Shown: piece by piece, positions 4,065-59,934 of the stretch
How the letters are laid out: each line of letters begins with the position of its first letter
Position numbering within the stretch: position 1 is the stretch's first letter
Source: Bacteroidia bacterium
Lineage (GTDB): Bacteria; Bacteroidota; Bacteroidia; UKL13-3
DNA: 64,000 bases
Direction: 5' to 3'
Assembly (NCBI GenBank): GCA_021740845.1
Contig: JAIOYZ010000005.1
Coordinates: 67,693 to 131,692 of the forward strand
The notes under the pieces: model-generated
What the model was told of the DNA's origin: nothing
The model's input: the letters and a program-made list of their open reading frames with translations, nothing else
The model's database searches: none
Translations under genes and position numbers: made by a program

Positions 4065-6689
4065 ATGAAAAAAAAATTACTTCAGTTATTCGCCATTCCA
4101 TTGTTTTCTTTAGGGTTGAATGCCCAGGTTAGCAATCAAAAAATCAATGATGAATTTAACAAGGCACTTAAACTTGAAAGATTCATTTCACCTGAGGAAG
4201 TTCAGTTTGTGATAACCTCATCTTATACCAGCAAGCACAATGGTGTAACTCATGTTTATGCAAACCAAATTGTTAATGGTGTTGAAATAATGAATGTAAA
4301 TGCAGATATGCATTTGAGCAAAGAAGGAAACATGATTGCTTACCATCATAATTTTATTCCTAACTTGTCACAAAAAGCGATTCCTACCCAGCAAAAGTTA
4401 ACTGCCATTGATGCCTTAAATAAGGGTTTATTAAATGAAGGTATGGTTCCAATGGGTATGAACCAAAAAGCACCAATCATAGAAATGGGTAAAATGGTTT
4501 GGTTTGACCCAAGCATATCATCTGAAAAATTAGCAGTTAAAGGAGCCTATTTTGCACAAGCAGATAAAATTAGTTTAATCTGGCAGACAGAGTTTTATAA
4601 TGATGAAACTCACGATTGGTGGAACATAAAGGTGGATGCAATTTCTGGAGAAATTTTAGAAAAAATCAATTATACCAATTTTTGTAATCCAAGTGAAATA
4701 AGTTCTCATATTGCCCATCCTAAGAACTCATTTATTTTTGAGGATGAACCACAAGTTGTTTTAGGCAAAAAAGCTAGTTCTCCGCAATACAATGTATTTC
4801 CTTTACCTCTAGAAAGCCCAGCAAGAGGTCCAAGAGAATTAGTAAGCAATACAGCCTCTGCAAACGCTTCACCTTATGGCTGGCACGATACAGATGGTGT
4901 AGTAGGAAATGAATTTATGATTACAAGAGGAAATAATGTTTGGGCTAAAGATGATACGCTGGCCAATAACGGAACCTCTGGAGGATTCTCTCCAAATGGT
5001 GGCGATTCCTTAATTTTCGATTTCCCTTATGATGTAAAAGCAAAACCTAGAAATAATTTGAGTTCAGCTATTGTTAACTTATTTTATTGGAATAACATTA
5101 TTCATGATATCATGTTTGAGTATGGTTTTAATGAGGAGGCTGGAAATTTCCAACAAAAGAATTATTCTGGGAAAGGCCTTGGTAAAGATTTTGTAAATGC
5201 AGATGCTCAAGACGGAAGTGGAACAAGCAATGCTAATTTTTCTACACCAGTAGACGGGCAAAATGGTAGAATGCAAATGTATTTATGGCCAACTAGCGGC
5301 GCGGCAACTTCAAACAATACTTTAGGCGTTATTTCTCCTTCAAGCATTAAAGGAGTTTTTTATGGTCCGCAATCTGTTGCTGGACCTAGGCTTTCGGCCA
5401 ATGGTTTGAAAGGAAAAATTGTATTGGTTTTGGATGGCAATGGTACAACAAGTAATGGTTGTGATTCTTTCTCTAATGCATCCGAAATTGCTGGTAATAT
5501 TGCATTAATAGATAGATCAGGTTCATGCGGAACACAATCTGCTACAAACAGAACTAAAATCAAAAAAGCTCAAGCTGCAGGAGCTATTGCAGTAATTTTC
5601 GCCCATGCAACTAATGGAATTACTCCAACTGCTGTAAATGGAACTGATAATGCAATTACAATTCCATCTATTACTATTGGTTATGGAACAGGTGTTATGA
5701 TTAAAACAGCATTGCAATCAGACTCTGTAATAGCTATTTTATTTGATTCTTCTGAATACAATACCGCAACTGTTTATGATAGCGATTTAGACAATGGTGT
5801 AATTGCCCATGAATATGGACATGGAATTTCAACCCGTTTAACAGGTGGACCAGCAAACTCATCTTGCTTAGGAAATCAAGAGCAAGCAGGTGAAGGTTGG
5901 AGCGATTTCTTTGCATTAGCATTAACTACAAGAACTTGGGAAACAAGCACTGGTGCCGCAAGAGGAATTGGAACTTGGGTAATTGATGAAGATTCTACTG
6001 GCTTAGGAATTAGGGATTATAGGTATTCAAGAAATATGACTATTAACCCAATGACCTATAATAGAATTAAAACTTTGAGTGTTCCTCACGGTGTTGGTTC
6101 TGTTTTTTGTACCATGTTATATGATATCTATTGGGACATGATTGACTTATATGGTTTTGATCCAGACTGGTATAATGGTAACGGAGGAAACAACAAAACC
6201 ATGCAATTGGTAATTGATGGATTGAAACTTCAAAAATGTAACCCTGGATTTGTGGATATGAGGAATGCAATAATTTTAGCAGATTCTATAAATAACAATG
6301 GAATTCACAAAGATTTATTATGGAAAGCATTTGCTAGAAGAGGTTTAGGTTTTTATGCCAATCAAGGATCAAGCACAAGCAGAACAGATGGAACAGAAAG
6401 CTTTGCCTTACCTCCTGTTACTGGTTTGAACCAAGTAAATCAAGATTTTCAATATAGAATGTATCCAAACCCTTCGCATACACAAATTACAGTAGATGTT
6501 TTTGGTGGAGCAAAAATTAGCGGAATTGAGATTTTTGATATCACTGGAAAATCGGTTCAAACAGAAACTTTTAGTAATACAAATTTACCAAGTGCTACTT
6601 TACATTTAAACAACCACCCTAAAGGTTATTACTTAGTAAAGGTGGAAAGCACCGAAGGCGTTTCATTCCAAAAATTATTGATTGATTAA
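4065..6689 (+). CDS. Secreted M36 (fungalysin-type) metallopeptidase with PA domain and T9SS type A tail
   Basis: 874 residues. An N-terminal signal peptide ends near LGLNAQ. An FTP-type propeptide region follows (residues about 30-190), then the catalytic part, interrupted by a PA domain at about residues 415-560 (NGTTSNGCDSF...SGSCGTQSATNRTKIKKAQAAGA). The zinc motif HEYGH is at residues 582-586, with the third ligand Glu in GEGWSDFF at residue 610, as expected of fungalysins. The last 75 residues (from YPNPSHTQITV, with GYYLVKV) form a type A T9SS sorting domain, so the enzyme should cross the outer membrane through type IX secretion. It appears monocistronic, with its own terminator. Confidence 0.95.
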   Translation: MKKKLLQLFAIPLFSLGLNAQVSNQKINDEFNKALKLERFISPEEVQFVITSSYTSKHNGVTHVYANQIVNGVEIMNVNADMHLSKEGNMIAYHHNFIPNLSQKAIPTQQKLTAIDALNKGLLNEGMVPMGMNQKAPIIEMGKMVWFDPSISSEKLAVKGAYFAQADKISLIWQTEFYNDETHDWWNIKVDAISGEILEKINYTNFCNPSEISSHIAHPKNSFIFEDEPQVVLGKKASSPQYNVFPLPLESPARGPRELVSNTASANASPYGWHDTDGVVGNEFMITRGNNVWAKDDTLANNGTSGGFSPNGGDSLIFDFPYDVKAKPRNNLSSAIVNLFYWNNIIHDIMFEYGFNEEAGNFQQKNYSGKGLGKDFVNADAQDGSGTSNANFSTPVDGQNGRMQMYLWPTSGAATSNNTLGVISPSSIKGVFYGPQSVAGPRLSANGLKGKIVLVLDGNGTTSNGCDSFSNASEIAGNIALIDRSGSCGTQSATNRTKIKKAQAAGAIAVIFAHATNGITPTAVNGTDNAITIPSITIGYGTGVMIKTALQSDSVIAILFDSSEYNTATVYDSDLDNGVIAHEYGHGISTRLTGGPANSSCLGNQEQAGEGWSDFFALALTTRTWETSTGAARGIGTWVIDEDSTGLGIRDYRYSRNMTINPMTYNRIKTLSVPHGVGSVFCTMLYDIYWDMIDLYGFDPDWYNGNGGNNKTMQLVIDGLKLQKCNPGFVDMRNAIILADSINNNGIHKDLLWKAFARRGLGFYANQGSSTSRTDGTESFALPPVTGLNQVNQDFQYRMYPNPSHTQITVDVFGGAKISGIEIFDITGKSVQTETFSNTNLPSATLHLNNHPKGYYLVKVESTEGVSFQKLLID

Positions 6690-9630: not shown

Positions 9631-10917
9631 TTGACCTACCAAGAAACACTTGATTATTTGTATAGCCAATTGCCAATGTTTACTCGCATTGGAAGCGCTG
9701 CTATTAAAAAGGATTTAACCAATACGCTTGCCTTATGCAAAGCCTTGGGTCAACCGCAAGAAAAATTTAAGTGCATACATATTGCAGGCACCAATGGCAA
9801 GGGCTCTAGCAGCCATATGTTGGCTTCAATACTTCAAGAAGCTGGATACAAAACGGGTCTGTATACATCGCCACATTTAAAAGATTTTAGAGAAAGGATT
9901 CGCATCAATGGCGAAATGATATCTGAGGAAAAAGTAATAGGTTTTGTTGGTTCGAACCAAAATCTTTTTGAAGAAATAAGACCTTCTTTTTTTGAATGGA
10001 CTGTTGCACTTTGCTTTGATTATTTTGCTGAAGAAAAAGTAGATATCGCTATTATTGAAACAGGACTAGGCGGAAGGCTAGATTCTACCAATATTATTGA
10101 CCCTATCCTAAGTATTATTACTAATATTGGCTGGGACCATATGGATATGCTTGGAGACAGTTTGGAGAAAATTGCTTTTGAAAAGGCTGGAATTATAAAG
10201 ACTAAAACACCTGTTGTTATTGGGGAATACCAAAGTGAAACCTTTCCTATTTTTATGGAGAAAGCCAGAAAAACAGAAAGTCAAATAATACTTGCAACGC
10301 AATTGGTAAATATTCTTTATTTCAATAGTTCCATTTCTCAATCAGCATTTGATGTTCAATTTCAATTTGGTGAATATTGGAAGAATGTTTACTGCGATTT
10401 AAATGGTTTATACCAAGAGAAAAATATTAAAACGGTTTTGGCATCTTTGGATATAATAAGGAACGCAGGTTTTAAGATTGAGGAAAAGGATGTTAGAAAT
10501 GGATTAGCTCACGTGAAGAAAAATACTCAGCTTATGGGTAGGTGGCAATTATTGGGAATTCAACCGATGGTTGTTTGTGATACAGGCCATAATATAGATG
10601 GAATTAAATTAGTACTTAAACAAATTGCCATGCAAAAATATTCGCACCTTCATATGGTGATAGGCATGGTAAAAGATAAGGATATACAAAAGGTATTGAG
10701 TATTTTGCCCAAAGATGCTACCTATTATTTTACTAAGGCAGCTATTCCAAGGGCATTAGATGAAAAGGAATTACAAGGTTTTGCCATTGCTTACCAATTA
10801 AAAGGTAAAACTTATGAAACGGTGATAGAAGCCGTTGATGCGGCAAAGCAAACTGCAAAAAAATCAGATTTAATCTTTATCGGTGGAAGTACCTTTGTTG
10901 TTGCAGAAGCTGTTTAA
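9631..10917 (+). CDS. folC: Bifunctional folylpolyglutamate synthase / dihydrofolate synthase
   Basis: 428 residues of a FolC ligase. The P-loop reads [10 protein letters not shown] near residue 54, followed by [17 protein letters not shown], the [13 protein letters not shown] segment, and the C-terminal domain with [10 protein letters not shown]. It adds glutamate to dihydropteroate and to folates in the cytoplasm. The start is a TTG: residues [15 protein letters not shown] right after it match the normal FolC N-terminus, and the only nearby upstream in-frame ATG (9616) is followed at once by TAG. The stop overlaps the convergent pyrD stop by four bases. Confidence 0.95.
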
Positions 10918-18650: not shown

Positions 18651-19244
18651 GTGTTTACAGGAATTATAGAAACTACAGGCAAGATTTTGCTTTTAGAAAA
18701 AGAAGGTACTAATTTAAATTTATGGGTTGGTTCGAACCTAAGTAAAGAATTGCGAGTTGATCAAAGTGTTGCACATAATGGAGTATGTTTAACCGTGGTT
18801 GAATTAGGTGAAAATTCACATAAAGTTACAGCAGTTGAAGAGACACTTTCTAAAACAAATTTGGGCAATTTAGAAATTGGAAGTTTGGTTAACATAGAAC
18901 GGTGCATGAAATCTGATGGAAGATTTGATGGTCATATTGTTCAAGGTCATGTAGATGATACAGCAACTTGCACTCAAGTAGAAAAATTAGATGGAAGTTG
19001 GTTTTACCATTTCGGTTTGAACCAAAAAAGCCAACAAGAATTAATTGTAGACAAAGGAAGTATATGTATTAATGGGGTCAGTTTAACTGTTGTGGCTTGC
19101 ACAGAAATTGGATTTTCTGTAACCATTATACCCTATACCTATGAACACACCACCTTTCAAAGTTTGAAGGTTGGGGATTTTGTGAACCTAGAATTTGATA
19201 TTTTAGGAAAATACATTCAAAAGCAATTGGCAGCAAGAGCATAA
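18651..19244 (+). CDS. ribE: Riboflavin synthase, alpha subunit
   Basis: 197 residues made of the two repeated lumazine-binding barrels: the first begins FTGIIETTGKI with SVAHNGVCLTVVE, the second near residue 98 (FDGHIVQGHVDDTATC) with GSICINGVSLTVV. It dismutates two lumazines to riboflavin. The start is GTG at 18651, supported by the invariant MFTGIIE N-terminus, three bases after the upstream stop. It carries a palindromic GGTTCGAACC at 18729-18738 and a full TTCGGTTTGAACCAA at 19011-19025. Confidence 0.96.
   Translation: MFTGIIETTGKILLLEKEGTNLNLWVGSNLSKELRVDQSVAHNGVCLTVVELGENSHKVTAVEETLSKTNLGNLEIGSLVNIERCMKSDGRFDGHIVQGHVDDTATCTQVEKLDGSWFYHFGLNQKSQQELIVDKGSICINGVSLTVVACTEIGFSVTIIPYTYEHTTFQSLKVGDFVNLEFDILGKYIQKQLAARA
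19011..19025 (+). repeat. Copy of the dispersed 15-bp motif TTCGGTTTGAACCAA
   Basis: Exact copy inside ribE, read in frame as FGLNQ. See the finding on the iterated motif for the full list of sites. Confidence 0.7.
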
Positions 19245-20500: not shown

Positions 20501-20532
20501 CCTTTCCTTAATTATTTATTTTATTTCCTTTT

Positions 20533-20542
20533 GGTTTGAACC
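20533..20542 (+). repeat. Intergenic copy of the GGTTTGAACC motif
   Basis: Embedded in TTTTGGTTTGAACCAAAA, an 18-base near-perfect inverted repeat around a TG centre, in the gap between rpsF and the divergent histidine kinase gene. Confidence 0.65.
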
Positions 20543-20609
20543 AAAATTAGGTAAAATAGAAATTCCATTCAAATCAAAATTTAACCAAATATCTACTATA
20601 TTCGCAACC

Positions 20610-22643
20610 ATGTCAAATAAAAACCACCAAAATCGTCTTTTAAGATCTGGTGTATTTATTATTGCCATTTTTCTTACAATTTCTAGCCACTCCTCCCCTA
20701 TAATTGATTCTCTCTTAAAATTAGGAAATTTCCATATAGAAAAAATTCATTATGATTGGGCAGGGAAGGTTGCTGAAGAGTTAGATAAACAAATTGACCT
20801 AAGTGACGAAAACGAGCAACTCTTTAATTATTATGCTTTCAAAGCAAATTATTATAGCCGTCTAGAAAAATACGATGAACAATTTAGTTGTCTAAAAAAG
20901 ACAGAAGAACTTGCCAATAAATTAAACGATAGAAGCAAAAAGGCTTCTGTGTTAATTGGATTTTCTGCCTATTATGAGCAATTTAATAATCTAAAAAAAG
21001 CATTGCCCTATATTTTAAAAGCAATTGATGAGTATACTTTTTTAAAAGAAGAACATAACTTAGCTTATCAGTATAATAAACTTGGCTTGATATATTATGC
21101 GGATGGCGATTATAAAAAGGCAAAGAAATATTTTGAAGTTGCATATACCCTGTATTTTAAGCATAGAAATGAGTCTGTTGAAAATGCCTATTGGGTTCAA
21201 AACTCTTTATCTAATATTGGTTTATGTTACCAGCAATCTGGGGAAAAAATTAAGGCCTTAGCAATAATGAAAATGGCTTTAAGATATTGCCAAACTGCAC
21301 CTTTTGAGAAAGGGAGACCTATAGCGGTTATAAAAACTAATATTGGCGCTATTTATGGCGATTTACGCCAAATTGAATTGGCAAAGTATTATTTAAATCA
21401 GGGAATTAAAGAGTGCTTTTTGCCAGAAAATAATGAATTAGGCCATGGAATAGAAAGTCTTATTTACTTGGCTACAATTTATAGTGCTGTAAAAAAATTT
21501 AAATCTGCAGATTCTTGTTTTCAATTTGCAAATACATTCATTATTTCAAATGGGTATTGGTTTATTCAAGATTTCTATTTCCAGCAAATTGCTGTTCACA
21601 AGGCAAATAAAGGCGATTATAAAAGCGCCTTTTTTGCACATAAAAAATATTTAGAAATCACAGATTCCATCGACAAGGCAATGGAGAAATCTAGTTTTGG
21701 GAAACAAATTCTTCTTTATAGTTTAGAGAAGAAAGAGATGGAAAATGAACTACTTAGTAAGGAATACAGATATAAATCTCTGGAAGTAAAAGTAGTAATT
21801 GCATTTGTAATTTTCTTCCTTATTGGAATTAGCGTGGTATATATTAACCTCAGGAAAATAAAAACAAAAAATCAGGCTTTGGTTGTCTTAAATGAACAGG
21901 TAACTAAACAAAAGTCAAATTTAGAAGAATTGAACTTAACTTTAAGTAAAATCAACCAAAACAAGAATTACCTAATTCAATCTATTGCCCACGACTTGCG
22001 CACCCCAATTGGAAATGTGATGAGTTTAAACGGTTTGTTGGAAGACCATATCAAGCAAGAAGGTGAAGGTTTAGAATATCAAAATCTAATAGAAAGCAGT
22101 TGTCAAATGGCTCTAAATATTATTGAAGATATTTTAGATCAATCTATGATTGAAAGAGGCAAACTAAATCTCAGAAAAACAGAAACTGTACTTCCTAAAA
22201 TAGTTGAAGAAACGGTTGCTATGTTACAATTTAGATGGCAGCCTAAAGAGATTTTGGTTCAAACCAAATTTGAAACCTTTACCCCAATATTTATTGATGA
22301 AGACAGGATAAAGCGTGTTATTTTAAATATTTTAATAAATGCTATTAAATTTAGTCCGAGGGCATCTTCTATTAATATTGAGCAATCACAAAATGAAGCT
22401 AGTTGTATATTAAAAATTAGGGATCAAGGAATTGGTATGTCGGAAGAAATTTTGGCTCAAATATTTGAGAAAAATACCAAAGTAGGAAGGGAAGGTTTGG
22501 AAAACGAGAAAACAATTGGAATTGGTCTTTCAATAGCTAAATCTATAGTAGAAGAACACCATGGAAAAATATATGTTGAAAGTGAACCTAATTATGGTTC
22601 AACCTTTTACATAGAATTACCCCTTAGTAGGTTTGAGTCATAG
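20610..22643 (+). CDS. TPR-containing membrane sensor histidine kinase
   Basis: 677 residues. An N-terminal signal or anchor segment (SGVFIIAIFLTISSHSS) leads a periplasmic region of tetratricopeptide repeats (about residues 60-370, for example YADGDYKKAKKYFEVAYTLY). A membrane segment at about 391-413 and a short coiled coil precede the kinase core: H-box IAHDLRTPIGN with the phospho-acceptor His at residue 461, N-box NILINAIKFSP, G1 IRDQGIGM and G2 GIGLSIAKSIVEEHHGKI. No receiver domain or response-regulator gene is adjacent, so it is an orphan here. TATATTCG at 20597-20604, 5 bases before the ATG, is a possible minus-7 box. Confidence 0.9.
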   Translation: MSNKNHQNRLLRSGVFIIAIFLTISSHSSPIIDSLLKLGNFHIEKIHYDWAGKVAEELDKQIDLSDENEQLFNYYAFKANYYSRLEKYDEQFSCLKKTEELANKLNDRSKKASVLIGFSAYYEQFNNLKKALPYILKAIDEYTFLKEEHNLAYQYNKLGLIYYADGDYKKAKKYFEVAYTLYFKHRNESVENAYWVQNSLSNIGLCYQQSGEKIKALAIMKMALRYCQTAPFEKGRPIAVIKTNIGAIYGDLRQIELAKYYLNQGIKECFLPENNELGHGIESLIYLATIYSAVKKFKSADSCFQFANTFIISNGYWFIQDFYFQQIAVHKANKGDYKSAFFAHKKYLEITDSIDKAMEKSSFGKQILLYSLEKKEMENELLSKEYRYKSLEVKVVIAFVIFFLIGISVVYINLRKIKTKNQALVVLNEQVTKQKSNLEELNLTLSKINQNKNYLIQSIAHDLRTPIGNVMSLNGLLEDHIKQEGEGLEYQNLIESSCQMALNIIEDILDQSMIERGKLNLRKTETVLPKIVEETVAMLQFRWQPKEILVQTKFETFTPIFIDEDRIKRVILNILINAIKFSPRASSINIEQSQNEASCILKIRDQGIGMSEEILAQIFEKNTKVGREGLENEKTIGIGLSIAKSIVEEHHGKIYVESEPNYGSTFYIELPLSRFES

Positions 22644-30623: not shown

Positions 30624-30669
30624 CAATTTTCCCGTTTATGTGCTATTTAAGCCATTAATGGTTTTGAAA

Positions 30670-30700
30670 TTTGGAGGATTGCCCTATTTTTATACCTTGC
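30670..30700 (+). promoter_or_regulatory. Candidate promoter of the S41 protease gene
   Basis: TTTG at 30670-30673, 19 bases, then TACCTTGC at 30693-30700, ending five bases before the ATG. Spacing is ideal, the box is one step off the TAnnTTTG consensus. Confidence 0.4.
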
Positions 30701-30705
30701 GACAA

Positions 30706-32709
30706 ATGACGAAAAAAATCTTTTTGGGTGTATGCGCCCTATTTCTATTTCAGATTGCTTTTGCAAATGATAGCACCAAAGTAGCTTTAAAAACATTTGC
30801 ACCAGAAGTTCAACATCCAACGTTGTTTCAACTTATTGGCCAGATTTTAAATTCTTACCATTATAGGAAAGTTAGTATTGATGATAAATTATCCTCAACA
30901 TTATTGGATAACTATATTGATAATTTAGACCCTGCTAAGGTTTATTTTATGCAACAAGACATTGATAAGTTTGAAGCCTATCGGAACCAATTGGACAATG
31001 ACTTATTAATGGGCAATGTAGACAAGGCATTTGAAATATATAATCTTTACCAAACCAGATTAAATGATAGGATACAATACACCTTTGATTTATTGAATAG
31101 TGAATTTGATTTTACCAAAAATGATTCCTTTTTAACTGATAGAGATAAGGCCACTTGGTGCAAAAGTGCTCGTGAATATGATGCTTTGTGGTTGGCAAAA
31201 ACAAAGAGTGAAGCTTTGCAATTAAAAGCTGATGGAAAAGATTTTAAGTCCTACTCTGATATTCTTAGAAAGAGATATTATAATTTGTTGAAGCAATTGG
31301 CCAAAACTAAAAACGAAGATGTGTTTTCTTTTTTTGCCAATTCTTTATCTGAAATAGCCGACCCGCATACTAATTATTTTTCGCCAAGAGCAGCAGAGGA
31401 CTTTGCTACAAGCATGAGTTTAAGTTTGGAAGGAATTGGAGCTACACTGCAAACTGAAAATGAGTATACCAAAATTAGAGAAGTTGTAAAGGGAGGTCCC
31501 GCAGAAAGAAGTAAAAAGTTAGCTGCTAATGATAAAATTGTTGCTGTAGGACAAGGCAAAGATGGCGAAATGGTTAGCATCTTGGATTGGAGAATTGATG
31601 ATGTGGTTTCATTAATTAGAGGTAAAAAAGGAACTCTTGTTCGTTTAGAAATAATACCTCATGACGCCACCAGTAACAAAACTGAGGTGATTGAAATTGT
31701 TAGAGACAAAATAGTTTTGGCTGATCAAGGTGCCAAAAGTAGCATTAAAGTTATTGAGAAGGATGGCAAAAAATACAAAATGGGTGTGGTTGTTTTGCCT
31801 ACTTTTTATTTGGATGTAGCTGCTTTACAAAGAGGCGATGAAAATTATAAAAGTACCACCAGAGATGTTAAAAAGTTAATTGTTGATTTAAAGAAAGAAA
31901 ACATTGATGGACTTGTTATTGATTTAAGAAACAATGGCGGAGGCAGTTTACAAGAAGCTGTTGAGTTAACTGGTTTGTTTATAAGCAAAGGTCCTGTTGT
32001 GGCGGTAAAAGACCATTTTGGGGTAACCAAAGCTGAAGAAGATAGGGATGGCTTAATTACTTGGGACGGCCCGATGTGTGTATTGGTAAATAGATTTAGT
32101 GCATCTGCATCAGAAATTTTTGCTGCGGCAATTCAAGATTATGACAGAGGTTTAGTTATAGGCGAAAAAACCTATGGAAAAGGAACGGTTCAAAACCTTT
32201 TTGATTTGAATAGTTTTATAAATATTGAAGGAAAAAAACTTGGGCAATTGAAGCTAACCATTGCCAAATTTTATAGAATATCTGGTGGTAGTACACAATT
32301 TAAAGGAGTTATCCCAGACATTGAATTTCCTAGTATTTATGCTGATAAGGATTTTGGTGAAGGTGCAAGTGAATTTGCTTTGCCTTACGATGAAATTAAA
32401 CCACAATCTTATTCCTCATTGGGATTGGCAAAAAAGAATTTAAATGAAATTCAAGCCAACCATACAGCAAGAATGGATAGCAGTGTAGCCTATAGATTTT
32501 TAATGGAAGATATTGATAACATGCTAGAAGCAAGACAAAGAAAGTATATCACACTAAATGAAGAAAAATACAAAGCTGAGCTTGCCATTGGAGAGAAAAA
32601 GAAAAAAGATAGGGAAGCTCAAAAAGCTAAATTGAAAGAAAGTAATCCAGGTGAGGATAACCTTATTTTAGACGAATCACTACAAATTCTATTTGACCAA
32701 TTAAAATAA
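30706..32709 (+). CDS. Carboxy-terminal processing peptidase (S41, Prc/Tsp-like)
   Basis: 667 residues from ATG 30706, after which a signal peptide (FLGVCALFLFQIAFA) begins. The Prc layout follows: an N-terminal helical domain with ADPHTNYFSPRAAEDF, a PDZ domain (ALEGIGATLQTENE to LVRLEIIPHD, about residues 235-335), and the catalytic domain with VIDLRNNGGGSLQEAVELTGLF, RFSASASEIFAAA (Ser nucleophile the middle Ser) and GEKTYGKGTVQ (catalytic Lys, 25 residues later). A Lys-rich C-terminal segment ends the protein. It degrades or trims periplasmic proteins from their C-terminus. The longer frame from 30640 lacks a signal-like start. Confidence 0.94.
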   Translation: MTKKIFLGVCALFLFQIAFANDSTKVALKTFAPEVQHPTLFQLIGQILNSYHYRKVSIDDKLSSTLLDNYIDNLDPAKVYFMQQDIDKFEAYRNQLDNDLLMGNVDKAFEIYNLYQTRLNDRIQYTFDLLNSEFDFTKNDSFLTDRDKATWCKSAREYDALWLAKTKSEALQLKADGKDFKSYSDILRKRYYNLLKQLAKTKNEDVFSFFANSLSEIADPHTNYFSPRAAEDFATSMSLSLEGIGATLQTENEYTKIREVVKGGPAERSKKLAANDKIVAVGQGKDGEMVSILDWRIDDVVSLIRGKKGTLVRLEIIPHDATSNKTEVIEIVRDKIVLADQGAKSSIKVIEKDGKKYKMGVVVLPTFYLDVAALQRGDENYKSTTRDVKKLIVDLKKENIDGLVIDLRNNGGGSLQEAVELTGLFISKGPVVAVKDHFGVTKAEEDRDGLITWDGPMCVLVNRFSASASEIFAAAIQDYDRGLVIGEKTYGKGTVQNLFDLNSFINIEGKKLGQLKLTIAKFYRISGGSTQFKGVIPDIEFPSIYADKDFGEGASEFALPYDEIKPQSYSSLGLAKKNLNEIQANHTARMDSSVAYRFLMEDIDNMLEARQRKYITLNEEKYKAELAIGEKKKKDREAQKAKLKESNPGEDNLILDESLQILFDQLK

Positions 32710-32714
32710 AAATA

Positions 32715-32752
32715 TTCGGTTTGAACCAAACTAAAAATTGGTTCAAACCGAA
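32715..32752. terminator. Perfect 15-bp inverted pair of the dispersed motif; terminator-like
   Basis: TTCGGTTTGAACCAA at 32715-32729 and its exact reverse complement at 32738-32752, with an 8-base loop. It fills the 44-bp gap between the convergent prc-like and rlpA-like genes. On the minus strand the stem is followed by a T-rich run, so it should terminate the rlpA-like transcript; on the plus strand no T-run follows. Paired uptake sequences in Neisseria and Haemophilus are used in the same way. Confidence 0.75.
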
Positions 32753-32753
32753 C

Positions 32754-33230
32754 TTACTCTTCTACTTTTTTTAAGCCTTGACCTGGCAAATCTGGGACAT
32801 GCTTTTGTGGCCAAGGTTTGTCTTTAGGAGGTAATTCTTCTATAACTACTTTTGCCCAACCTTTTCCATTGGTCATTCCTAAATGTTTAGCTGCACGGTA
32901 ACTTAAATCTATGAGGTATTTATGGTTATAAGGCCCTCTATCGTTTATAATAACGATTACCCATTTACCTGTTTTTTTATTTGTAACTTTAACTCTAGTA
33001 CCAAAAGGCAAAGTTAAATGTGCGGCAGTAAGCTTATTTTTATTATATCGCTCACCATTTGCGGTTTTACGACCATGAAAACTATTTGAATAATAACTTG
33101 CCTTGCCTTCTCTATAATACCACTCTCTAGTTGGCATTAAGGTATCCATGGAAATGATGGTTTGAGACCAACTTTCTGTAAGGCCAAAAACTAACAATAA
33201 AAAAAATAAAAGCAGATTCCTTTTTTGCAT
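32754..33230 (-). CDS. RlpA-like septal ring lytic transglycosylase family protein
   Basis: 158 residues from the ATG at 33230, which directly begins a signal peptide (LLLFFLLLVFGLTESWSQ). The double-psi beta-barrel is clear: GKASYYSNSFHGRKTANGERYNKNKLTAAHLTLPFGT, VTNKKTGKWVIVIINDRGPY and LIDLSYRAAKHLGM. RlpA proteins act on peptidoglycan glycan strands or bind septa. There is no SPOR domain, unlike the E. coli protein. The Asp of NDRGPY, catalytic in active relatives, is present. TATATTCG (33239-33246, minus strand) lies 8 bases before the start. Confidence 0.9.
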   Translation of the reverse strand: MQKRNLLLFFLLLVFGLTESWSQTIISMDTLMPTREWYYREGKASYYSNSFHGRKTANGERYNKNKLTAAHLTLPFGTRVKVTNKKTGKWVIVIINDRGPYNHKYLIDLSYRAAKHLGMTNGKGWAKVVIEELPPKDKPWPQKHVPDLPGQGLKKVEE

Positions 33231-33269
33231 TATATTGGCGAATATAAGCAATTCTATTATTTCATCTTT

Positions 33270-34547
33270 ATGCACGTTATTGCTAACACAAAACCCTTGG
33301 CGGAGAGGGTAAGACCACAATCGGTTTCGCAAATGATTGGCCAGCAGCATTTATTGGCGCCTGGTGCACCATTGTACCAAGCCATTTTAAATAAAAAAAT
33401 TCCTTCATTAATTTTATGGGGACCACCGGGAGTTGGCAAAACAACATTGGCTAAAATTATTGGTCAAGAATTGGGAATGAATTTCTATTATTTAAGTGCC
33501 ATTCAAGCTGGGGTTGCTGAGGTGCGTAAAGTTATTGAAGAAGCAAAAAAGCTTGGAAAAGTTTTGTTGTTTCTTGATGAAATCCATCGATTTAATAAAA
33601 GTCAGCAGGATGCACTTTTGGGAGCGGTTGAAAATGGTACCATTGTATTAATAGGAGCGACTACAGAAAACCCAAGTTTTGAAGTAAATAATGCATTGCT
33701 TAGCAGGGCACAAGTTTATGTGTTGAATGAATTAACTGAAGAAGAGTTAATTGAATTATTGCACCAAGCAATTGCAAAAGATGAATGGCTGAAACAAAAA
33801 TCAATTGAGCTTATTGAAACTGATTTATTGCTTCAACATTGTGAAGGAGATGGAAGAAAACTATTGAATTTATTGGAGTTATTGGTAAGTCAGGCAGAGG
33901 AAGGTGAATCTATAAAAATTACCAATGATTGGGTAGGAAAAATATTACAGAAGAAAACCACCAAATACGATAAAGGAGGAGAAGAACATTATAATGTGAT
34001 ATCTGCCTTTATTAAATCTTTACGAGGTAGCGATCCTAATGCGGCGGTTTATTGGCTTGCGAGAATGTTGGTGGCAGGAGAATCACCAGAGTTTATTGCA
34101 AGGCGCATGCTAATTTTAGCAAGTGAAGATATTGGAAATGCAAATCCAAATGCTTTGTTAATTGCTAGTAATTGTTTTGATGCCATTCATAAAATTGGAA
34201 TGCCCGAAGGGAGGATTATTTTATCGCAATGTGCTGTTTATTTGGCAACATCAGCCAAGAGTAATGCCTCTTATATGGCAATAGAACAAGCGATGGCAAC
34301 AGTATCTAAAACTGGTAATTTAGCAGTGCCCTTGCATTTAAGAAATGCACCAACCAAATTAATGAAGGATTTAAATTATGGGAAGGAATATGCTTATGCA
34401 CACGCCTATAAAGACAATTTTGTGGAGCAAGAATTTTTACCAGAAAACATAGCTGGGCAAAAGTTCTATGAGCCAGGAGAAAATGCCAGAGAGAAAGAGC
34501 AAAGGGCATTTCTTAAGGCAAGATGGAAAGAGAAATATGGGTATTGA
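33270..34547 (+). CDS. rarA: Replication-associated recombination protein A (RarA/MgsA ATPase)
   Basis: 425 residues from ATG 33270. The AAA+ parts are PLAERVRPQSVSQMIGQQHLL, Walker A WGPPGVGKTTLAKI, Walker B LFLDEIHRFNKSQQDALLGAVE, sensor 1 GATTENPSFEVNNALLSR, and the C-terminal tetramerisation part (HYNVISAFIKSLRGSDPNAAVYWLARML, DIGNANPNALL). It acts at stalled replication forks. Upstream in-frame ATG at 33225 overlaps the divergent gene and is unlikely. Its stop is 18 bases from the convergent Hsp70-like gene. Confidence 0.96.
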   Translation: MHVIANTKPLAERVRPQSVSQMIGQQHLLAPGAPLYQAILNKKIPSLILWGPPGVGKTTLAKIIGQELGMNFYYLSAIQAGVAEVRKVIEEAKKLGKVLLFLDEIHRFNKSQQDALLGAVENGTIVLIGATTENPSFEVNNALLSRAQVYVLNELTEEELIELLHQAIAKDEWLKQKSIELIETDLLLQHCEGDGRKLLNLLELLVSQAEEGESIKITNDWVGKILQKKTTKYDKGGEEHYNVISAFIKSLRGSDPNAAVYWLARMLVAGESPEFIARRMLILASEDIGNANPNALLIASNCFDAIHKIGMPEGRIILSQCAVYLATSAKSNASYMAIEQAMATVSKTGNLAVPLHLRNAPTKLMKDLNYGKEYAYAHAYKDNFVEQEFLPENIAGQKFYEPGENAREKEQRAFLKARWKEKYGY

Positions 34548-39205: not shown

Positions 39206-39208
39206 TTT

Positions 39209-39218
39209 GGTTCGAACC
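39209..39218. repeat. Palindromic motif GGTTCGAACC in a 5' leader
   Basis: One of three fully palindromic forms of the dispersed motif (others at 9949-9958 and 18729-18738). It sits in the 45-bp gap between tgt and the LptF/G-type gene, directly before the start codon. Confidence 0.6.
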
Positions 39219-39250
39219 TAATTAATTAAAGCGGTGCAAAATAGACCTTC

Positions 39251-40369
39251 TTATAATTTATTCATGACTATTGGTAAAATTTCCTTTTTCCAAGAAGCAA
39301 AATCGCCTGCTAAAATATGCCCGCGAGCCTCAGCAACTAGCCAAAGGAAGAAACTCAAGTTTTGAATACTGGCAATGGTTGCACCCAACATTTCATTGCA
39401 TTTTATGAGATGTTTAAGATACGCTTTGGAATATTCGGGTGTGAAAATATCATCCACAGGAGAATTATCAAATTTCCATTTCTCATTTTTGATATTGATA
39501 ATACCTTTGGAAGTAAACAAGAAACCATGTCGTGCATTGCGCGTTGGAAGCACACAATCAAACATATCAATTCCTAAGGCAATGCATTCTAAGATATTTG
39601 CAGGAGTACCCACACCCATTAAATAACGAGGTTTATCTAAAGGCAAATGCTCGCAAACCAATTCGGTCATTTCGTACATTTGCTCAGCAGGTTCGCCCAC
39701 ACTCAAGCCACCAATTGCATTTCCTGGCATGTTTTGGTCTGCAATAAACTTAGCCGACTCAATTCTTAAATCTTTGTAAACACTTCCCTGAACAATAGGA
39801 AAAAGACTTTGTTCAAACCCGTAACGAGGTTCTGTTTCATTGAAACGAGTAATGCATCTTTGCAACCAACGGTGGGTTAAGTCCATTGAATTTTTAGCAT
39901 ATTTATAATCACAAGGGTAAGGCGGACACTCATCAAAAGCCATGAAGATATCGGCACCGATGCTACGTTGAATATCAGTAGCAATCTCTGGCGAGAAAAA
40001 TATTTTTGAACCATCTAAGTGGGATCGAAACGAAACTCCTTCTTCTTTGATTTTACGAATGCTACTCAAACTAAAAACTTGGTAACCTCCGCTATCGGTA
40101 AGCATGGGTTTATCCCAATTAATAAATTTATGAATGCCTCCAGCTTGGTGCAATACTTCTAACCCCGGACGTAAGAAAATGTGGTAGGTATTGGCCAATA
40201 TTATTTGCGCCTTTACCCTTTCAGCTAAATCCTTTTGGGTTACAGATTTAACGGTACCTTGAGTTCCCACAGGCATAAAAATAGGGGTTTGTATTTCTCC
40301 CCTTTCGGTTTGAACCAAACCCGCTCTTGCCTTTGTTTCTTTATCTGAATGAAGTATTGAAAATTTCAT
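39251..40369 (-). CDS. tgt: tRNA-guanine transglycosylase
   Basis: 372 residues. It exchanges guanine at the wobble position of GUN anticodon tRNAs for a queuine precursor. Catalytic Asp segments are LTDSGGYQVFSL and MFDCVLPTRNARHGFLF; QGSVYKDLR and GGLSVGEP are also present. The C-terminal zinc site CxCxxC of most bacterial enzymes is missing: the region reads SPVDDIFTPEYSKAYLKHL. As I recall Bacteroidota orthologues share that loss. A full 15-mer motif copy is at 40304-40318 and TATATTCG (40377-40384, minus strand) precedes the start. Confidence 0.96.
   Translation of the reverse strand: MKFSILHSDKETKARAGLVQTERGEIQTPIFMPVGTQGTVKSVTQKDLAERVKAQIILANTYHIFLRPGLEVLHQAGGIHKFINWDKPMLTDSGGYQVFSLSSIRKIKEEGVSFRSHLDGSKIFFSPEIATDIQRSIGADIFMAFDECPPYPCDYKYAKNSMDLTHRWLQRCITRFNETEPRYGFEQSLFPIVQGSVYKDLRIESAKFIADQNMPGNAIGGLSVGEPAEQMYEMTELVCEHLPLDKPRYLMGVGTPANILECIALGIDMFDCVLPTRNARHGFLFTSKGIINIKNEKWKFDNSPVDDIFTPEYSKAYLKHLIKCNEMLGATIASIQNLSFFLWLVAEARGHILAGDFASWKKEILPIVMNKL
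40304..40318 (+). repeat. Copy of the dispersed 15-bp motif TTCGGTTTGAACCAA
   Basis: Exact copy in the 5' part of tgt, antisense to the gene, so the coding strand reads in frame as LVQTE. The reading frame differs from the ribE copy, which argues for DNA-level conservation. Confidence 0.7.
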
Positions 40370-44631: not shown

Positions 44632-46056
44632 TTAAATGTCAATTTTTGGTTCAACCATAAGTATTTCTTCGCGCTCCACGGCAACTTGCCCAGCATGAGC
44701 GCCTTTTGGTTTTCTAACAAACTTTTTAGGCGTGTAAATTACAGGAACCAACTGACTATTTCTGGAAGATGAATAATGTGCTGCTATCTGCGCCGCAAAC
44801 TCAATTACCTGTGGTGGAAAGGGTTTGAGCTGTTGGTGTTTAATTATAACATGACTTCCACTTACACCTTTTGCATGCAACCACAAATCGTCTTTATGTG
44901 CAAATTTCAATGTAAGTTCATCGTTGTTAACCGCATTTTTCCCAACATAAACCGCAAAACCAAGGCAATCAAATCGTCGGAATTTTTCTTTGAGAGGCAG
45001 GTCTTGAACCTTTTTTTCTTCTTTAATCCAAGAGCGTAATTCCCTTAAACTTTTGGCCGCACTAATTTGATTCAAAGTTTCTTCTAGTTCTTTAATCTTT
45101 AATGAACACACCTCGACCTGCTTTTGTTTTAAAGGAATTTCCTTAGCCCTGTTTCTGGCCTTCTGGTAATATTGAGCGGCATTGTCCTGTGGCGAAAGGT
45201 CTTTTTTTAATGCAATAACAATAGGTTGTTCGCGGTAAAAATCGTGAAGTGTAACCTCCTTTTCACCCTTTTTTACCACATGCAAATTAGCCATTAAGAT
45301 ATGTCCAATTTCTTCATAGGGCGTTGCCGTTAAAGCATGGTTTAAAAAGGCATTGGCACCTGTTAGCAAACCATGTTCTCTTTTTAGTTTCTGTTTGAAC
45401 CGAGCCAACAATTTCTGTTGTTCGCTTAAGAAAATATAACCTTGAAGGAAATTGCCAGAAAAGGTGTGTAAAGCTTCAAAGATTACTTCTGTTTTTAAAA
45501 TTTGGTTCAAACCGAACTCTTCTTTAAACCCTAAGCCATACTGATGAGGAGACAATTGGTAAACATAAAAATTTCCCTCAAAAACAGGTAATTCTTGTGA
45601 GGCATTTGATTGGGAAAATTCGTCGCGCTTTAAATGAAAATCGTTTTCTATTCCTGCTCTAAACAATTGCTTTACTTGATTATTATCAAACCAAATAACA
45701 TTGGCAAGTGGCCCATACATTTTAAAAACCAAGGCTTGGTTATTTGCAAAAACTACTTCAAAAGAGCGGTTGTTCTTGTGGGCTTGAACCAAACTTATTT
45801 TTGAACCAATTAGGTCCTGAAATAAAGGAAAGACAGTTCCATTTCTTTCGATGGGATATTCGTAAAAGAAGAACAAGCCAGTTTTTGCTTCGGTATTTAT
45901 GCGCAGGCTGATTTGCTCTTGGTCTTTTTGAAAAATTAAATTGAGTTCGTGTTGTTGAACGCGAAATGCATCTTTTAACTGGAAATCTAAAAGCAAGTGC
46001 TGCAAGTCTTTTGCCAACAAAGGAAAAAGAGATACATGTTGGTGAAGCGACTGCAT
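44632..46056 (-). CDS. NFACT RNA-binding (Rqc2/RqcH-like) family protein
   Basis: 474 residues. The C-terminal NFACT-R domain is clear (FAVYVGKNAVNNDELTLKFAHKDDLWLHAKGVSGSHVII, then KKFVRKPKGAHAGQVAVEREE). The N-terminal part (NFACT-N-like) and a coiled-coil middle (residues about 270-340) are present but the protein is shorter than RqcH of Bacillus (about 570). RqcH/Rqc2 bind obstructed large ribosomal subunits and add C-terminal tails. Whether this shorter form does so is untested. The start shares one base with the MBL stop (TAATG). Holds one 15-mer motif copy. Confidence 0.84.
   Translation of the reverse strand: MQSLHQHVSLFPLLAKDLQHLLLDFQLKDAFRVQQHELNLIFQKDQEQISLRINTEAKTGLFFFYEYPIERNGTVFPLFQDLIGSKISLVQAHKNNRSFEVVFANNQALVFKMYGPLANVIWFDNNQVKQLFRAGIENDFHLKRDEFSQSNASQELPVFEGNFYVYQLSPHQYGLGFKEEFGLNQILKTEVIFEALHTFSGNFLQGYIFLSEQQKLLARFKQKLKREHGLLTGANAFLNHALTATPYEEIGHILMANLHVVKKGEKEVTLHDFYREQPIVIALKKDLSPQDNAAQYYQKARNRAKEIPLKQKQVEVCSLKIKELEETLNQISAAKSLRELRSWIKEEKKVQDLPLKEKFRRFDCLGFAVYVGKNAVNNDELTLKFAHKDDLWLHAKGVSGSHVIIKHQQLKPFPPQVIEFAAQIAAHYSSSRNSQLVPVIYTPKKFVRKPKGAHAGQVAVEREEILMVEPKIDI
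45502..45516 (-). repeat. Copy of the dispersed 15-bp motif TTCGGTTTGAACCAA
   Basis: Exact copy in the sense orientation of the NFACT gene, read in frame as FGLNQ. A 14-residue-scale neighbour at 45784-45807 contains two further partial TTGAACCAA copies. Confidence 0.7.
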
Positions 46057-51026: not shown

Positions 51027-51854
51027 TTATTTAGGAATAGACCTCCTAAGGGTATTAAGTTTAACTCCAACCACGGTTTCCAGCTGGTAATAATAAATCA
51101 TGAAATCTCTTCTTGATAATTCTAAGCCAGATTCGGATATGGTAAGGATATTTTTTAAACGAGATAATTCGTAAGGATGAATTTTACCTCTTCTCATTTC
51201 CACCATGGCAATCTCCACCGACAAACGAGCGCTTTCCACATCTTGTTGTCTGGAGTTCATAATTTTTTGGGAGGCAATTAAATTGTAAAAATCGGCAATA
51301 ACTTTTCTTCTAACTTCAATTTCTTCGTTTTCGCGTTTGTATTTTGCCATTTTCTCTTCTGCCTTCAACGACTTCATTTTATTGGGTTTGCCCCAAACTT
51401 CGGTTAGAGGAATGGAGATATTTGCACCAAAGCGATAACCTAAACCTAAACTATTATTTAAAACAGAACCATCTGAGTTTACAGTATTTAAATTAGTTTG
51501 ATTACCGTAAGTATAATTGAAGAAACCGCTGATACCATTGAGGAAGATATAGCGGGTGTATAAAGTATTGTAATGAGCTTTCTCCCAATTAGCCTCCTCC
51601 AACTTTAACACAGGTGAAAAGCGTATAGCATAGGCCAAGATGGTATCTAGAGGCATTATTTGCCTATCCAAATCAATATTTAAATCAAATAAAATGGTAT
51701 CCACAGGAATACTCGAAAGCGGTACCATGGCTTTCCCATTCCATACCAAAGTATCCTTGCTATTAGGTTTGGTAGGTGATTGCGCCAAGATGGTTTGGTT
51801 TGAACCAAATGCCAAAACGACGAAGAGAAATATAAGTTTTCTGGTTAAAGCCAA
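51027..51854 (-). CDS. TolC-like outer-membrane protein, half-length
   Basis: 275 residues, about 60% of a normal TolC. A signal peptide (LFVVLAFGSNQTILAQ) is followed by one OEP-like helical-hairpin unit (ILAYAIRFSPVLKLEEANWEKAHYNTLYTRYI, a beta-strand part with GYRFGANISIPLTEVW, then ADFYNLIASQKIMNSRQQDVESARLSVEIAM). The second repeat is missing. The start is TTG at 51854, no in-frame ATG is near. Next to Wzc-like and O-antigen ligase-like genes it may serve as an outer-membrane export channel component. Motif copy in its signal region at 51797-51806. Confidence 0.75.
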   Translation of the reverse strand: MALTRKLIFLFVVLAFGSNQTILAQSPTKPNSKDTLVWNGKAMVPLSSIPVDTILFDLNIDLDRQIMPLDTILAYAIRFSPVLKLEEANWEKAHYNTLYTRYIFLNGISGFFNYTYGNQTNLNTVNSDGSVLNNSLGLGYRFGANISIPLTEVWGKPNKMKSLKAEEKMAKYKRENEEIEVRRKVIADFYNLIASQKIMNSRQQDVESARLSVEIAMVEMRRGKIHPYELSRLKNILTISESGLELSRRDFMIYYYQLETVVGVKLNTLRRSIPK

Positions 51855-52029: not shown

Positions 52030-52443
52030 ATGAAAAATGTAAAAAAAATGATTGCCCTAATTTTTTGTTTGGGCGCTTTAGCAATTTCACAACCCTTATT
52101 GGCACAACCTGGCTCGGGTGGACAAGGCAATAGAGAGGAAATGAAAAAACGCTCGGAAGAATTGAAGGCCAAGTTAAAGTTATCTCCAGAGCAAGGTGCC
52201 ATGTACGACAAAATTATTGCACAAAACCGTGAAGAGGCAAAAACACAAATGATGGCCTTACCTGAAGATGCTAGTAGATTGGAAAAGGCAGAAATCATGA
52301 AAAAGAGCATGGAGAAAGCAGATGGCGAAATTTTAGAAATACTTGATGGAGAGCAACAAAAAATTTACAAAGAGGAAAAAGAAAAAATGAAGGCCGAAAT
52401 GAAAGCTAAGCGCGATCAAAGAAAAGGCAAAGGCAAAAAATAA
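52030..52443 (+). CDS. Small periplasmic helical protein (Spy/CpxP-like in form)
   Basis: 137 residues: signal peptide (MIALIFCLGALAISQPLLAQ), a Gly-rich linker, then a highly charged helical region (REEMKKRSEELKAKLKLSPEQ, AEIMKKSMEKADGEILEILDGEQQ). The LSPEQ...L-D-x-EQQ-K pattern is like small periplasmic chaperones of the Spy/CpxP type, but I do not recognise a specific family. It is monocistronic, followed by a terminator. Confidence 0.68.
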   Translation: MKNVKKMIALIFCLGALAISQPLLAQPGSGGQGNREEMKKRSEELKAKLKLSPEQGAMYDKIIAQNREEAKTQMMALPEDASRLEKAEIMKKSMEKADGEILEILDGEQQKIYKEEKEKMKAEMKAKRDQRKGKGKK

Positions 52444-52450
52444 GGATTTG

Positions 52451-52480
52451 GTTTGGTTCAAAAAGAACCTAAACTTTTTT
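52451..52480 (+). terminator. Terminator built from a motif half-site
   Basis: GTTTGGTTC (52451-52459) pairs with GAACC and AAAC (52465-52469, 52471-52474, one bulged T) around a five-A loop, then TTTTTT. It ends the small periplasmic gene, 8 bases after its stop. Confidence 0.7.
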
Positions 52481-57999: not shown

Positions 58000-59934
58000 A
58001 TGAGGAAATCCCTTTTAGCCTTTTTCTTCCTTTGTTCCCTTACTATTTTTCGGTTTGAACCAATTTTTGCGCAAGCAATAAACGATTACAATAACTATAA
58101 AGAGAAATATCCAAAAGCGGAAGTAATCTGTACGCGGATGAATCAAGTTTTGGAAATTAAATTGGAAGACAATCATCCTAAAATTACCTACAAAACCTTG
58201 GAGGAATTTTTCTATTTGGGTGAAAACAATTCTGGATATTCCAACCGCTCAATAAGCTATTCGGGATTCTACGATTTAAAAGAATACAAGGCTTATCTTT
58301 ATTCGGTTCAAAACGATAAATATAAAAAATACGAAGTAAAAGACTTTAAGGTAAATGATTTTCAGGACGACAATATTTTCTTTGACGATTCGCATGAACT
58401 AAAATTCATGTTTCCTCAAATTGGAAAAGGCAACAAAACCGTAATTGAAAATACCTACCATATAAAAGATCCTCATTTCTTACCCAAACTATACCTTTCG
58501 CCTTACCTCAATTACGAAGACATAAAGTATACGTTGATTGTGCAGGATGGATTTGAAATTGCTATTGATAGCTTTTTGCATCAAGAGAATAAATTGAATT
58601 TTTCTATGGTAAAAAAAGGCGGTACAAGTATTTATAGCTGGATGGGCTCATCGCCTAAAAGCCTCGATTACGAAGGAAATGGACCAGATATGGGTTATGT
58701 GGCAAATCAGTTTTTCTTTAGAATAAAATCGTATAATGTAAAAGGAAACAAGGTTTCTGTTTTATCTAACTTAACAGATTTATACCATTGGAACTGTGCC
58801 TTCCTTACCAAAACCAAAGAGGATATAAACCAGTTTAAATCACTCAGCGATTCTATTGTTGGCAAAGAAACAAACGAGGAGAAAAAGGCAGAACTGATTT
58901 TTAATTGGGTTCAAAACAATATCCGCTACATTGCTATGGAAGCTGGCTACGATGGCTTTATACCTGCACAAGCCAGCTCTGTTTGCAAAGAACGCTATGG
59001 CGATTGCAAGGGGATTGCTAATATACTTTATAGCTTATTGCGCTCACAAAATTTAGAAGCATATATGGTTTGGATTGGCACTAGAAGCATTCCTTTTAAA
59101 TACACAGAATTGCCTAGCCCAGTTGTAGATAACCACATGATAACTGCTTTAAAAATTAATGGTAAAACCTTGTTTTTAGACGGCACCTCACACAATTTAA
59201 AGTTTGGTTTACCCTCTCCTTTTATTCAAGGAAAAGAAGCCATGGTTAGTTCAAACAACTGCGAAGATTTTACCATAGAAGTTGTTCCAGAGGTAAGTTT
59301 TACCCAAAATACAATTACAGATTCTTGCTATATTATCATGGACAAAAAGAGTTTAATTGGCTCAGGATTGGCAGTATTTAATGGCTATAAACGATTGTCA
59401 TTTGTAGATCAATTAAGCAACAGAGAATACCGTCATATTCAAGAGCAATGCAGGTATTATCTTTTAAGAGGAAACAACAGATTTATTTTAGATACCGTTT
59501 GGTTAGAGAATTTAGATAATAACAATCTCCCATTATTGGTTCATTACAAATTTAATATTCCAGACTATGCTATTTTTGTCGACAATGAATATTACCTCAA
59601 CCTAAATTTGGATAAGCCTTCCATCCCATCCAAGGTTGACCTTACAAGAAACGTAGGCATGGAATATCGCTTTATGGCAGGAGAAACCAACGACTATTAT
59701 TTTGAAATTCCAACAGGTTACCAAGTTCTTTCCCTACCAACCAAAATTGAAAAGAATACTTCTGTTATGAATTTTACTAATGAATATTCTTTATCAAAAA
59801 ATACCATTGTTAGAAAACAATCTTATTCTTTTAAAACACTTTTGCTTGAACCAAAAGATTTCCCAACCTACAATACCATGGTAGAAACCATGCAAAAAAA
59901 CTATTCAGATCAAATTACCCTCAAATTAAAATAA
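58000..59934 (+). CDS. DUF3857 / transglutaminase-like exported protein with complete triad
   Basis: 644 residues. Signal peptide (LLAFFFLCSLTIFRFEPIFAQ); DUF3857-type N-terminal part (TRMNQVLEIKLEDNHPKITYKTLEEFFYLGE); transglutaminase core with Cys336 in RYGDCKGIANILYSLL, His379 in VVDNHMITALKI and Asp394 in LFLDGTSHNLKF. The triad spacing fits active transglutaminase or cysteine-peptidase-like folds. Substrate unknown, presumably periplasmic protein. Motif copy in the signal region at 58049-58063. Three bases after the MORN gene. Confidence 0.86.
   Translation: MRKSLLAFFFLCSLTIFRFEPIFAQAINDYNNYKEKYPKAEVICTRMNQVLEIKLEDNHPKITYKTLEEFFYLGENNSGYSNRSISYSGFYDLKEYKAYLYSVQNDKYKKYEVKDFKVNDFQDDNIFFDDSHELKFMFPQIGKGNKTVIENTYHIKDPHFLPKLYLSPYLNYEDIKYTLIVQDGFEIAIDSFLHQENKLNFSMVKKGGTSIYSWMGSSPKSLDYEGNGPDMGYVANQFFFRIKSYNVKGNKVSVLSNLTDLYHWNCAFLTKTKEDINQFKSLSDSIVGKETNEEKKAELIFNWVQNNIRYIAMEAGYDGFIPAQASSVCKERYGDCKGIANILYSLLRSQNLEAYMVWIGTRSIPFKYTELPSPVVDNHMITALKINGKTLFLDGTSHNLKFGLPSPFIQGKEAMVSSNNCEDFTIEVVPEVSFTQNTITDSCYIIMDKKSLIGSGLAVFNGYKRLSFVDQLSNREYRHIQEQCRYYLLRGNNRFILDTVWLENLDNNNLPLLVHYKFNIPDYAIFVDNEYYLNLNLDKPSIPSKVDLTRNVGMEYRFMAGETNDYYFEIPTGYQVLSLPTKIEKNTSVMNFTNEYSLSKNTIVRKQSYSFKTLLLEPKDFPTYNTMVETMQKNYSDQITLKLK
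58049..58063 (+). repeat. Copy of the dispersed 15-bp motif TTCGGTTTGAACCAA
   Basis: Exact copy in the signal-peptide coding region, read in frame as RFEP, a third reading frame compared with FGLNQ and LVQTE at other sites. Confidence 0.7.

Follow-up and report, generated by a model that had tools for sequence, protein, structure and literature searches.

The 15-mer TTCGGTTTGAACCAA is a genome-wide repeat confined to one genus of Bacteroidia, and two of its copies stand tail to tail between a tail-specific protease gene and an RlpA-like gene in the window, the whole stretch of 64,000 nucleotides analysed here. We read the repeat, with middling confidence, as a word that the genus maintains at the level of double-stranded DNA; its most likely purpose is to label self DNA for uptake or recombination, in the manner of a DNA uptake sequence, and a few tail-to-tail copies would now serve as intrinsic terminators. 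Two copies so arranged would be transcribed into a 15-bp RNA hairpin, and for that reason a small subset of them may have been kept as terminators where genes converge; the window pair (32715–32752) would be one of these, terminating mainly the minus-strand RlpA-like gene.

The repeat is abundant far beyond expectation. The 4.09-Mb genome that holds the window has 536 exact copies (300 and 236 on the two strands) and none of the reversed control, and the window has 56 matches at up to three mismatches against 3.5 expected, palindromic matches being counted on both strands; the pair is therefore not a chance occurrence. The top over-represented 8-, 10- and 12-mers in a 464-kb sample of this genome are words of the 15-mer motif. 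Exact sites number 101 in an 842-kb sample (chosen partly for known pairs on contigs C31, C35, C15 and C34, which biases pair counts there), and 67 of these are in gaps, a density of 71 per 100 kb against 4.6 in genes. With one mismatch allowed, the sample has 198 sites. Genes contain 95 of them, 42 in sense and 53 in antisense orientation, and the other 103 are in gaps, a good many of them just 3′ of stop codons. Genes were called by script simply as the longest ORFs, a procedure that overlooked the RlpA-like gene next to the window pair. Spacing between sites is near random (CV 0.87–0.96). Strong genome-wide over-representation of one short word, on both strands and in core genes as well as gaps, is characteristic of uptake sequences and is found here, housekeeping genes included. 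Within the window, exact copies identified by match and Pfam lie inside the following genes:

19011–19025, plus strand: exact copy in a riboflavin-synthase-like gene (PF00677), sense
40304–40318, plus strand: exact copy in a queuine tRNA-ribosyltransferase (TGT) gene (PF01702), antisense
45502–45516, minus strand: exact copy in an NFACT-family gene (PF05833), sense
58049–58063, plus strand: exact copy in a transglutaminase-like gene (PF01841), sense

The core of the 15-mer is near-palindromic, GGTT-TG-AACC, and the motif is asymmetric, with TTC on the left, AA on the right and TG at the centre. Beyond the motif and its A/T-rich surroundings, 140 core sites in this genome reveal no conserved flank. 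5′ of the motif is an A/T-rich stretch that recalls the A/T tracts of USS; sites within genes have it too in weaker form, with one column reaching 0.86 A+T. The window also contains near-copies that match on both strands, with cores palindromic or nearly so, for example GGTTCGAACC (9946–9961, 20530–20545, 22253–22268, 39206–39221 and 51794–51809), and GGTTCGAACC, GGTTTGATCC and GACCC variants are likewise over-represented in the genome sample. On contig C9, near 37657 and 38976 (L116), two copies of ATCGGTTTGAACCAA have similar flanks on both sides and look like part of a larger duplicated sequence. The literature searched yielded no mention of the 13-mer TTCGGTTTGAACC.

The genome is placed in Bacteroidota by its relatives: the nearest named loci for the protease come from Bacteroidota MAGs, and in G003 the stretch following the protease gene is identical to that of Bacteroidetes bacterium B1(2017) (NKJG01000002.1). 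Outside this genome the repeat follows the genus. All 19 genus genomes contain exact copies (range 3 to 536, at most 206 in the others), against one copy in total in 22 genomes outside the genus, a distribution restricted to the genus lineage; in each of the 19 the core GGTTTGAACC is commoner than its reversed control. In G003 and G015, sampled at 100 kb each, the motif does not rank with the leading words, though their core counts exceed the control genome-wide. G004, sampled at the same length (L127–L131, C1:1–100000), may have a dialect: GGTCTGAACCAA and GGTTCGAACCAA reach four counts each, small numbers for 100 kb, with GGTTTGAACCAA outside the top ten. G015 abounds in unrelated repeats, GAGGTATGAG, TGTACAATGT and ATGTACG (L132–L136, C80:1–100000; also L057, downstream of the S41 gene).

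Conservation of the core was measured in a single species pair, G008 and G010 (178 kb of alignment, 93.6% identity). Of 97 occurrences of the core, 90 are matched by the identical word in the partner, against 80 of 166 for composition-matched shuffled words and 342 of 609 in a larger set of control words; each shared site is tallied from both genomes, so that P values are overstated. The excess holds within genes (72/79 versus 320/567) and in gaps (18/18 versus 22/42). Where the core is not identical (seven cases), a single base separates the partners in six and several bases in the seventh. Across 51 orthologous sites mean identity is ~0.98 for core positions against 0.93 for flanking ones; in this one species pair the motif is thus conserved above its flanks, as uptake sequences are. 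Core identity above that of control words implies that the word is held by selection or biased recombination, and a similar excess is reported for neisserial DUS (97% versus about 85% identity; PMC2397512). Presence in 19 of 19 genomes, on both strands and in housekeeping genes, together with core conservation, gives the 15-mer what appears to be the signature of a DNA-uptake-type self tag.

The chief rival to a self tag, which we consider unlikely, is that a chromosomal protein (a nucleoid-associated protein, a nucleoid-occlusion factor or a global regulator) binds the 15-mer and that the pairs are incidental. The quasi-palindromic core GGTT-TG-AACC would suit a dimer, the fully palindromic GGTTCGAACC is over-represented as well, and both core conservation above control words and the concentration of exact sites in gaps (71 versus 4.6 per 100 kb) are compatible with such a site. 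The asymmetry of the motif (TTC left, AA right, TG centre) fits it poorly, as does the location of 95 of 198 copies inside genes, and a range of 3 to 536 exact copies among nearly complete genomes of one genus is odd for a housekeeping site. The self tag is the preferred reading of the repeat. Its paired form comprises the following features in the window:

30640–32709, plus strand: S41 tail-specific protease (Tsp/Prc type), the left convergent gene (ORF and Pfam)
32703–32714, minus strand: T-rich tract 3′ of the stem, 10 T in 12 nt; with the stem, it would make up an intrinsic terminator of the RlpA-like gene
32715–32729, plus strand: first arm, an exact copy of TTCGGTTTGAACCAA (exact match search)
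32730–32737, no strand: loop of 8 nt, ACTAAAAA
32738–32752, minus strand: second arm, an exact copy of TTCGGTTTGAACCAA (exact match and fold), the arms forming a 15-bp stem
32754–33350, minus strand: RlpA-like DPBB protein, the right convergent gene (ORF and Pfam)

The left ORF has the domains of a tail-specific protease (PF17804/PF03572/PF11818) and the right ORF the DPBB_1 domain (PF03330); the pair is classed as convergent from the ORF list and Pfam annotation. Its 38 nt take up 38 of the 44 nt between the two stops. The sequence-only reading had described a perfect opposed pair with an eight-base loop in this gap, its stem running on the minus strand into a T-rich tract, and exact matching and folding bear out both points. 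The predicted stem is stable on either strand (plus, −21.8 kcal/mol, z −7.4; minus, −26.0 kcal/mol, z −6.5), with no equally good structure among 200 shuffles in each case. On the minus strand it is followed directly by TATTTTTATTTT, with 10 T in 12, the T-tract expected of an intrinsic terminator; 6 T in 12 follow on the plus strand, and a simple terminator scan flags both strands. The pair probably acts as a transcription stop, and is best read as two copies of the repeat that have taken on the role of intrinsic terminator downstream of the RlpA-like gene; any effect on the protease strand would be weaker at most.

A second hairpin in the window had been linked to this one through a related GGTTC/GAACC half-site:

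52451–52474, plus strand: weak hairpin GGTTC/GAACC followed by T6, terminator-like and not an opposed 15-mer pair

The half-site is present, as GGTTC-AAAAA-GAACC with partial outer pairs, just 3′ of the stop of the ORF at 52030–52443. The hairpin is weaker than had been implied (−10.1 kcal/mol, z −1.6, with 12 of 200 shuffles equally good) and includes one two-mismatch copy of the 15-mer instead of an opposed pair.

A search for further opposed pairs, which the sequence-only reading had proposed, reveals that the window pair is not unique. Exact copies lying 1–30 nt apart form four tail-to-tail pairs, and no head-to-head or direct pairs, in the whole genome, the latter two orientations being counted genome-wide for the exact 15-mer only; relaxed to the 13-mer, there are ten tail-to-tail pairs. 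Under the assumption of even placement within gaps (real sites lean to gene ends), gap clustering predicts 1.7 exact pairs, from which four do not differ significantly (P about 0.10), and about 2.3 relaxed pairs, which ten exceed ~4.4-fold (P 0.0001). Convergent gaps contain five of the ten relaxed pairs and 17% of gap length (P 0.016). Four of these five have at least 9 T in the 12 nt 3′ of the stem on one strand, a tract equivalent to which accompanies 4 of the 101 exact sites of the sample, a set that overlaps with the pairs; the other five pairs, four in codirectional gaps and one in a divergent gap, are without a T-tract. Two pairs on contig C31 (L096 12609–12656 and 13219–13260) lie some 600 nt apart and their loops are alike, AAATAATT...AGGA, which would fit duplication of one of them; the loops of the remaining pairs, compared by eye, vary in length and sequence. 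Viral contigs gave no match to the exact pair pattern. Inverted pairs as the usual arrangement of the repeat are not supported: the four exact pairs account for 8 of 536 copies, an estimated 3% or so of near-exact copies are paired, and each of the 18 genus relatives has no relaxed pair, weak evidence in itself given that their fewer copies lead one to expect few. Pairs are a minor, partly terminator-like class.

Thirteen orthologous loci from the genus were examined (L048–L060), and eight, from relatives some of which are close to each other, keep the convergence of the S41 and RlpA-like genes, as read by eye; in none of the eight does the gap, with stop codons some 4–15 nt apart, contain a pair or a copy of the 15-mer (also by eye). 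A conserved or ancestral terminator is accordingly rejected, and the 32715–32752 hairpin is most simply seen as a gain of the window's own lineage. Together with the lack of relaxed pairs anywhere in 18 relatives, the empty gap indicates that pair-based termination is not an old trait of the genus and not a widespread one in it. Orthologues in the relatives fetched for the genes beside pairs C17 and C21 likewise have no pair. One G008 orthologue has a single copy of GGTTCAAACC directly behind a terminator-like hairpin of the ordinary kind (L117, minus strand, downstream of a gene that ends near 4864).

These observations bear on whether the 15-mer is primarily a transcription-termination or 3′-end element, of which pairs are the full form. 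Gap copies do gather behind stops, codirectional gaps have 44 sense against 24 antisense copies (P 0.02), and pairs favour convergent gaps. Such a role is nonetheless improbable as the primary one: 95 of 198 copies are within genes, in both orientations (42 sense, 53 antisense); a single copy, with 2 nt between its half-sites, would form no stable hairpin judging from its sequence; and no copy is present in the orthologous gap of eight of eight relatives. The T-rich stretch that precedes gap copies is no mark of gene ends either, being equally common at gene starts (12/45) and gene ends (12/58).

Lower still in probability is the insertion, in this lineage, of a small mobile palindromic element of REP or MITE type. 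The short, pair-free gap of the relatives implies a gain of at least about 30 nt in this lineage, and the two C31 pairs with their similar loops look like a duplication. Elsewhere the loops differ by eye in length and sequence, the 140 core sites have no shared extended body or termini beyond the motif and its A/T-rich surroundings, and most copies are single; with the C31 pairs as the exception, differing loops and the lack of a conserved flank disfavour a mobile element. Chance resemblance between the repeat and the stem of an ordinary intrinsic terminator would explain the strong hairpin and the T-tract on one strand, and has a negligible probability, already refuted by counts, as both arms are letter-perfect copies of a 536-copy 15-mer that forms nine further near-exact pairs.

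We return to the preferred reading, a self mark for uptake or recombination. Outside Neisseriaceae and Pasteurellaceae, both of which use pili for DNA uptake, no uptake sequence is known to be firmly established, and the literature searched gave no convincing uptake tag sequence for Bacteroidota. The likeness to these systems drawn by the sequence-only reading stands in part: the repeat has several of their hallmarks, and the genome has no pilus ATPase above the Pfam cut-off. The best match to the PilB/PilT-type ATPase profile (PF00437) scores 18.9 bits, below the cut-off of 24.9, in a search directed at this pilus/secretion ATPase family; the same profile matches all 14 control genomes, 13 of them above cut-off. 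Judged by this ATPase, a type IV pilus with a ComP-type motif-binding minor pilin appears to be lacking, so that a receptor would be unlike ComP, and the known uptake receptors have no obvious counterpart here. ComEC (PF03772) is present in this genome and in 10 of 14 controls, and DprA (PF02481) in 19 of 19 genus genomes and 11 of 14 controls; both are so widespread that they say little. The 15-mer is uptake-sequence-like in most sequence-visible features, and we do not class it as an uptake sequence. More tentatively, and at somewhat short of even confidence, it could be a true DNA uptake sequence with a pilus-independent receptor, the first in the phylum, doubling as a terminator in one species independently of Neisseria. 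DNA self-marking would then have arisen again with another receptor and in the absence of a pilus ATPase above cut-off.

Among known systems, the DUS of Neisseriaceae are alike in being short repeats of many copies with conservation above background; they have dialects between relatives, which are no more than hinted at for the 15-mer, and their close inverted pairs are described as rho-independent terminators, as we propose for the 15-mer pair (PMC2397512, PMC3630211). The 15-mer differs in phylum and sequence and in its lower density (536 copies in 4.09 Mb against a reported 5,918 in 2.4 Mb of Kingella oralis). Inverted pairs are reported as numerous in all DUS genomes, whereas those of the 15-mer are few (ten) and limited to one of the 19 genomes of the genus. 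The lineage-specific window pair shows how such a repeat may become a terminator. This genome is also without a pilus ATPase above cut-off.

The USS of Pasteurellaceae is built on a different core, flanked by a pattern of its own, and depends on pili for uptake. It resembles the 15-mer in having copies in both genes and gaps (PMC2346458). A terminator role has been proposed for its inverted intergenic copies and is contested, since a substantial fraction are unpaired and many are intragenic (PMC2346458).

The closest comparison by phylum is with Riemerella. R. anatipestifer, also of the Bacteroidota, transforms with ComEC, DprA and ComF, and its authors report finding no pilus homologues (PMC8459023). 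One essential Riemerella protein contains DUF5689, for which this genome gives below-cut-off matches only (26.3 versus 28.6 bits), uninformative as to a link with Riemerella machinery. R. columbina prefers its own DNA in competition, and the role of the candidate k-mers was left open by the authors; those k-mers, as given in that report, are nearly all A/T runs and nothing like the 15-mer (PMC7965970). Between them, the two Riemerella species set a precedent within the phylum for pilus-free uptake with a preference for self DNA, and the 15-mer would provide a concrete sequence with which self-DNA preference of the R. columbina kind can be tested.
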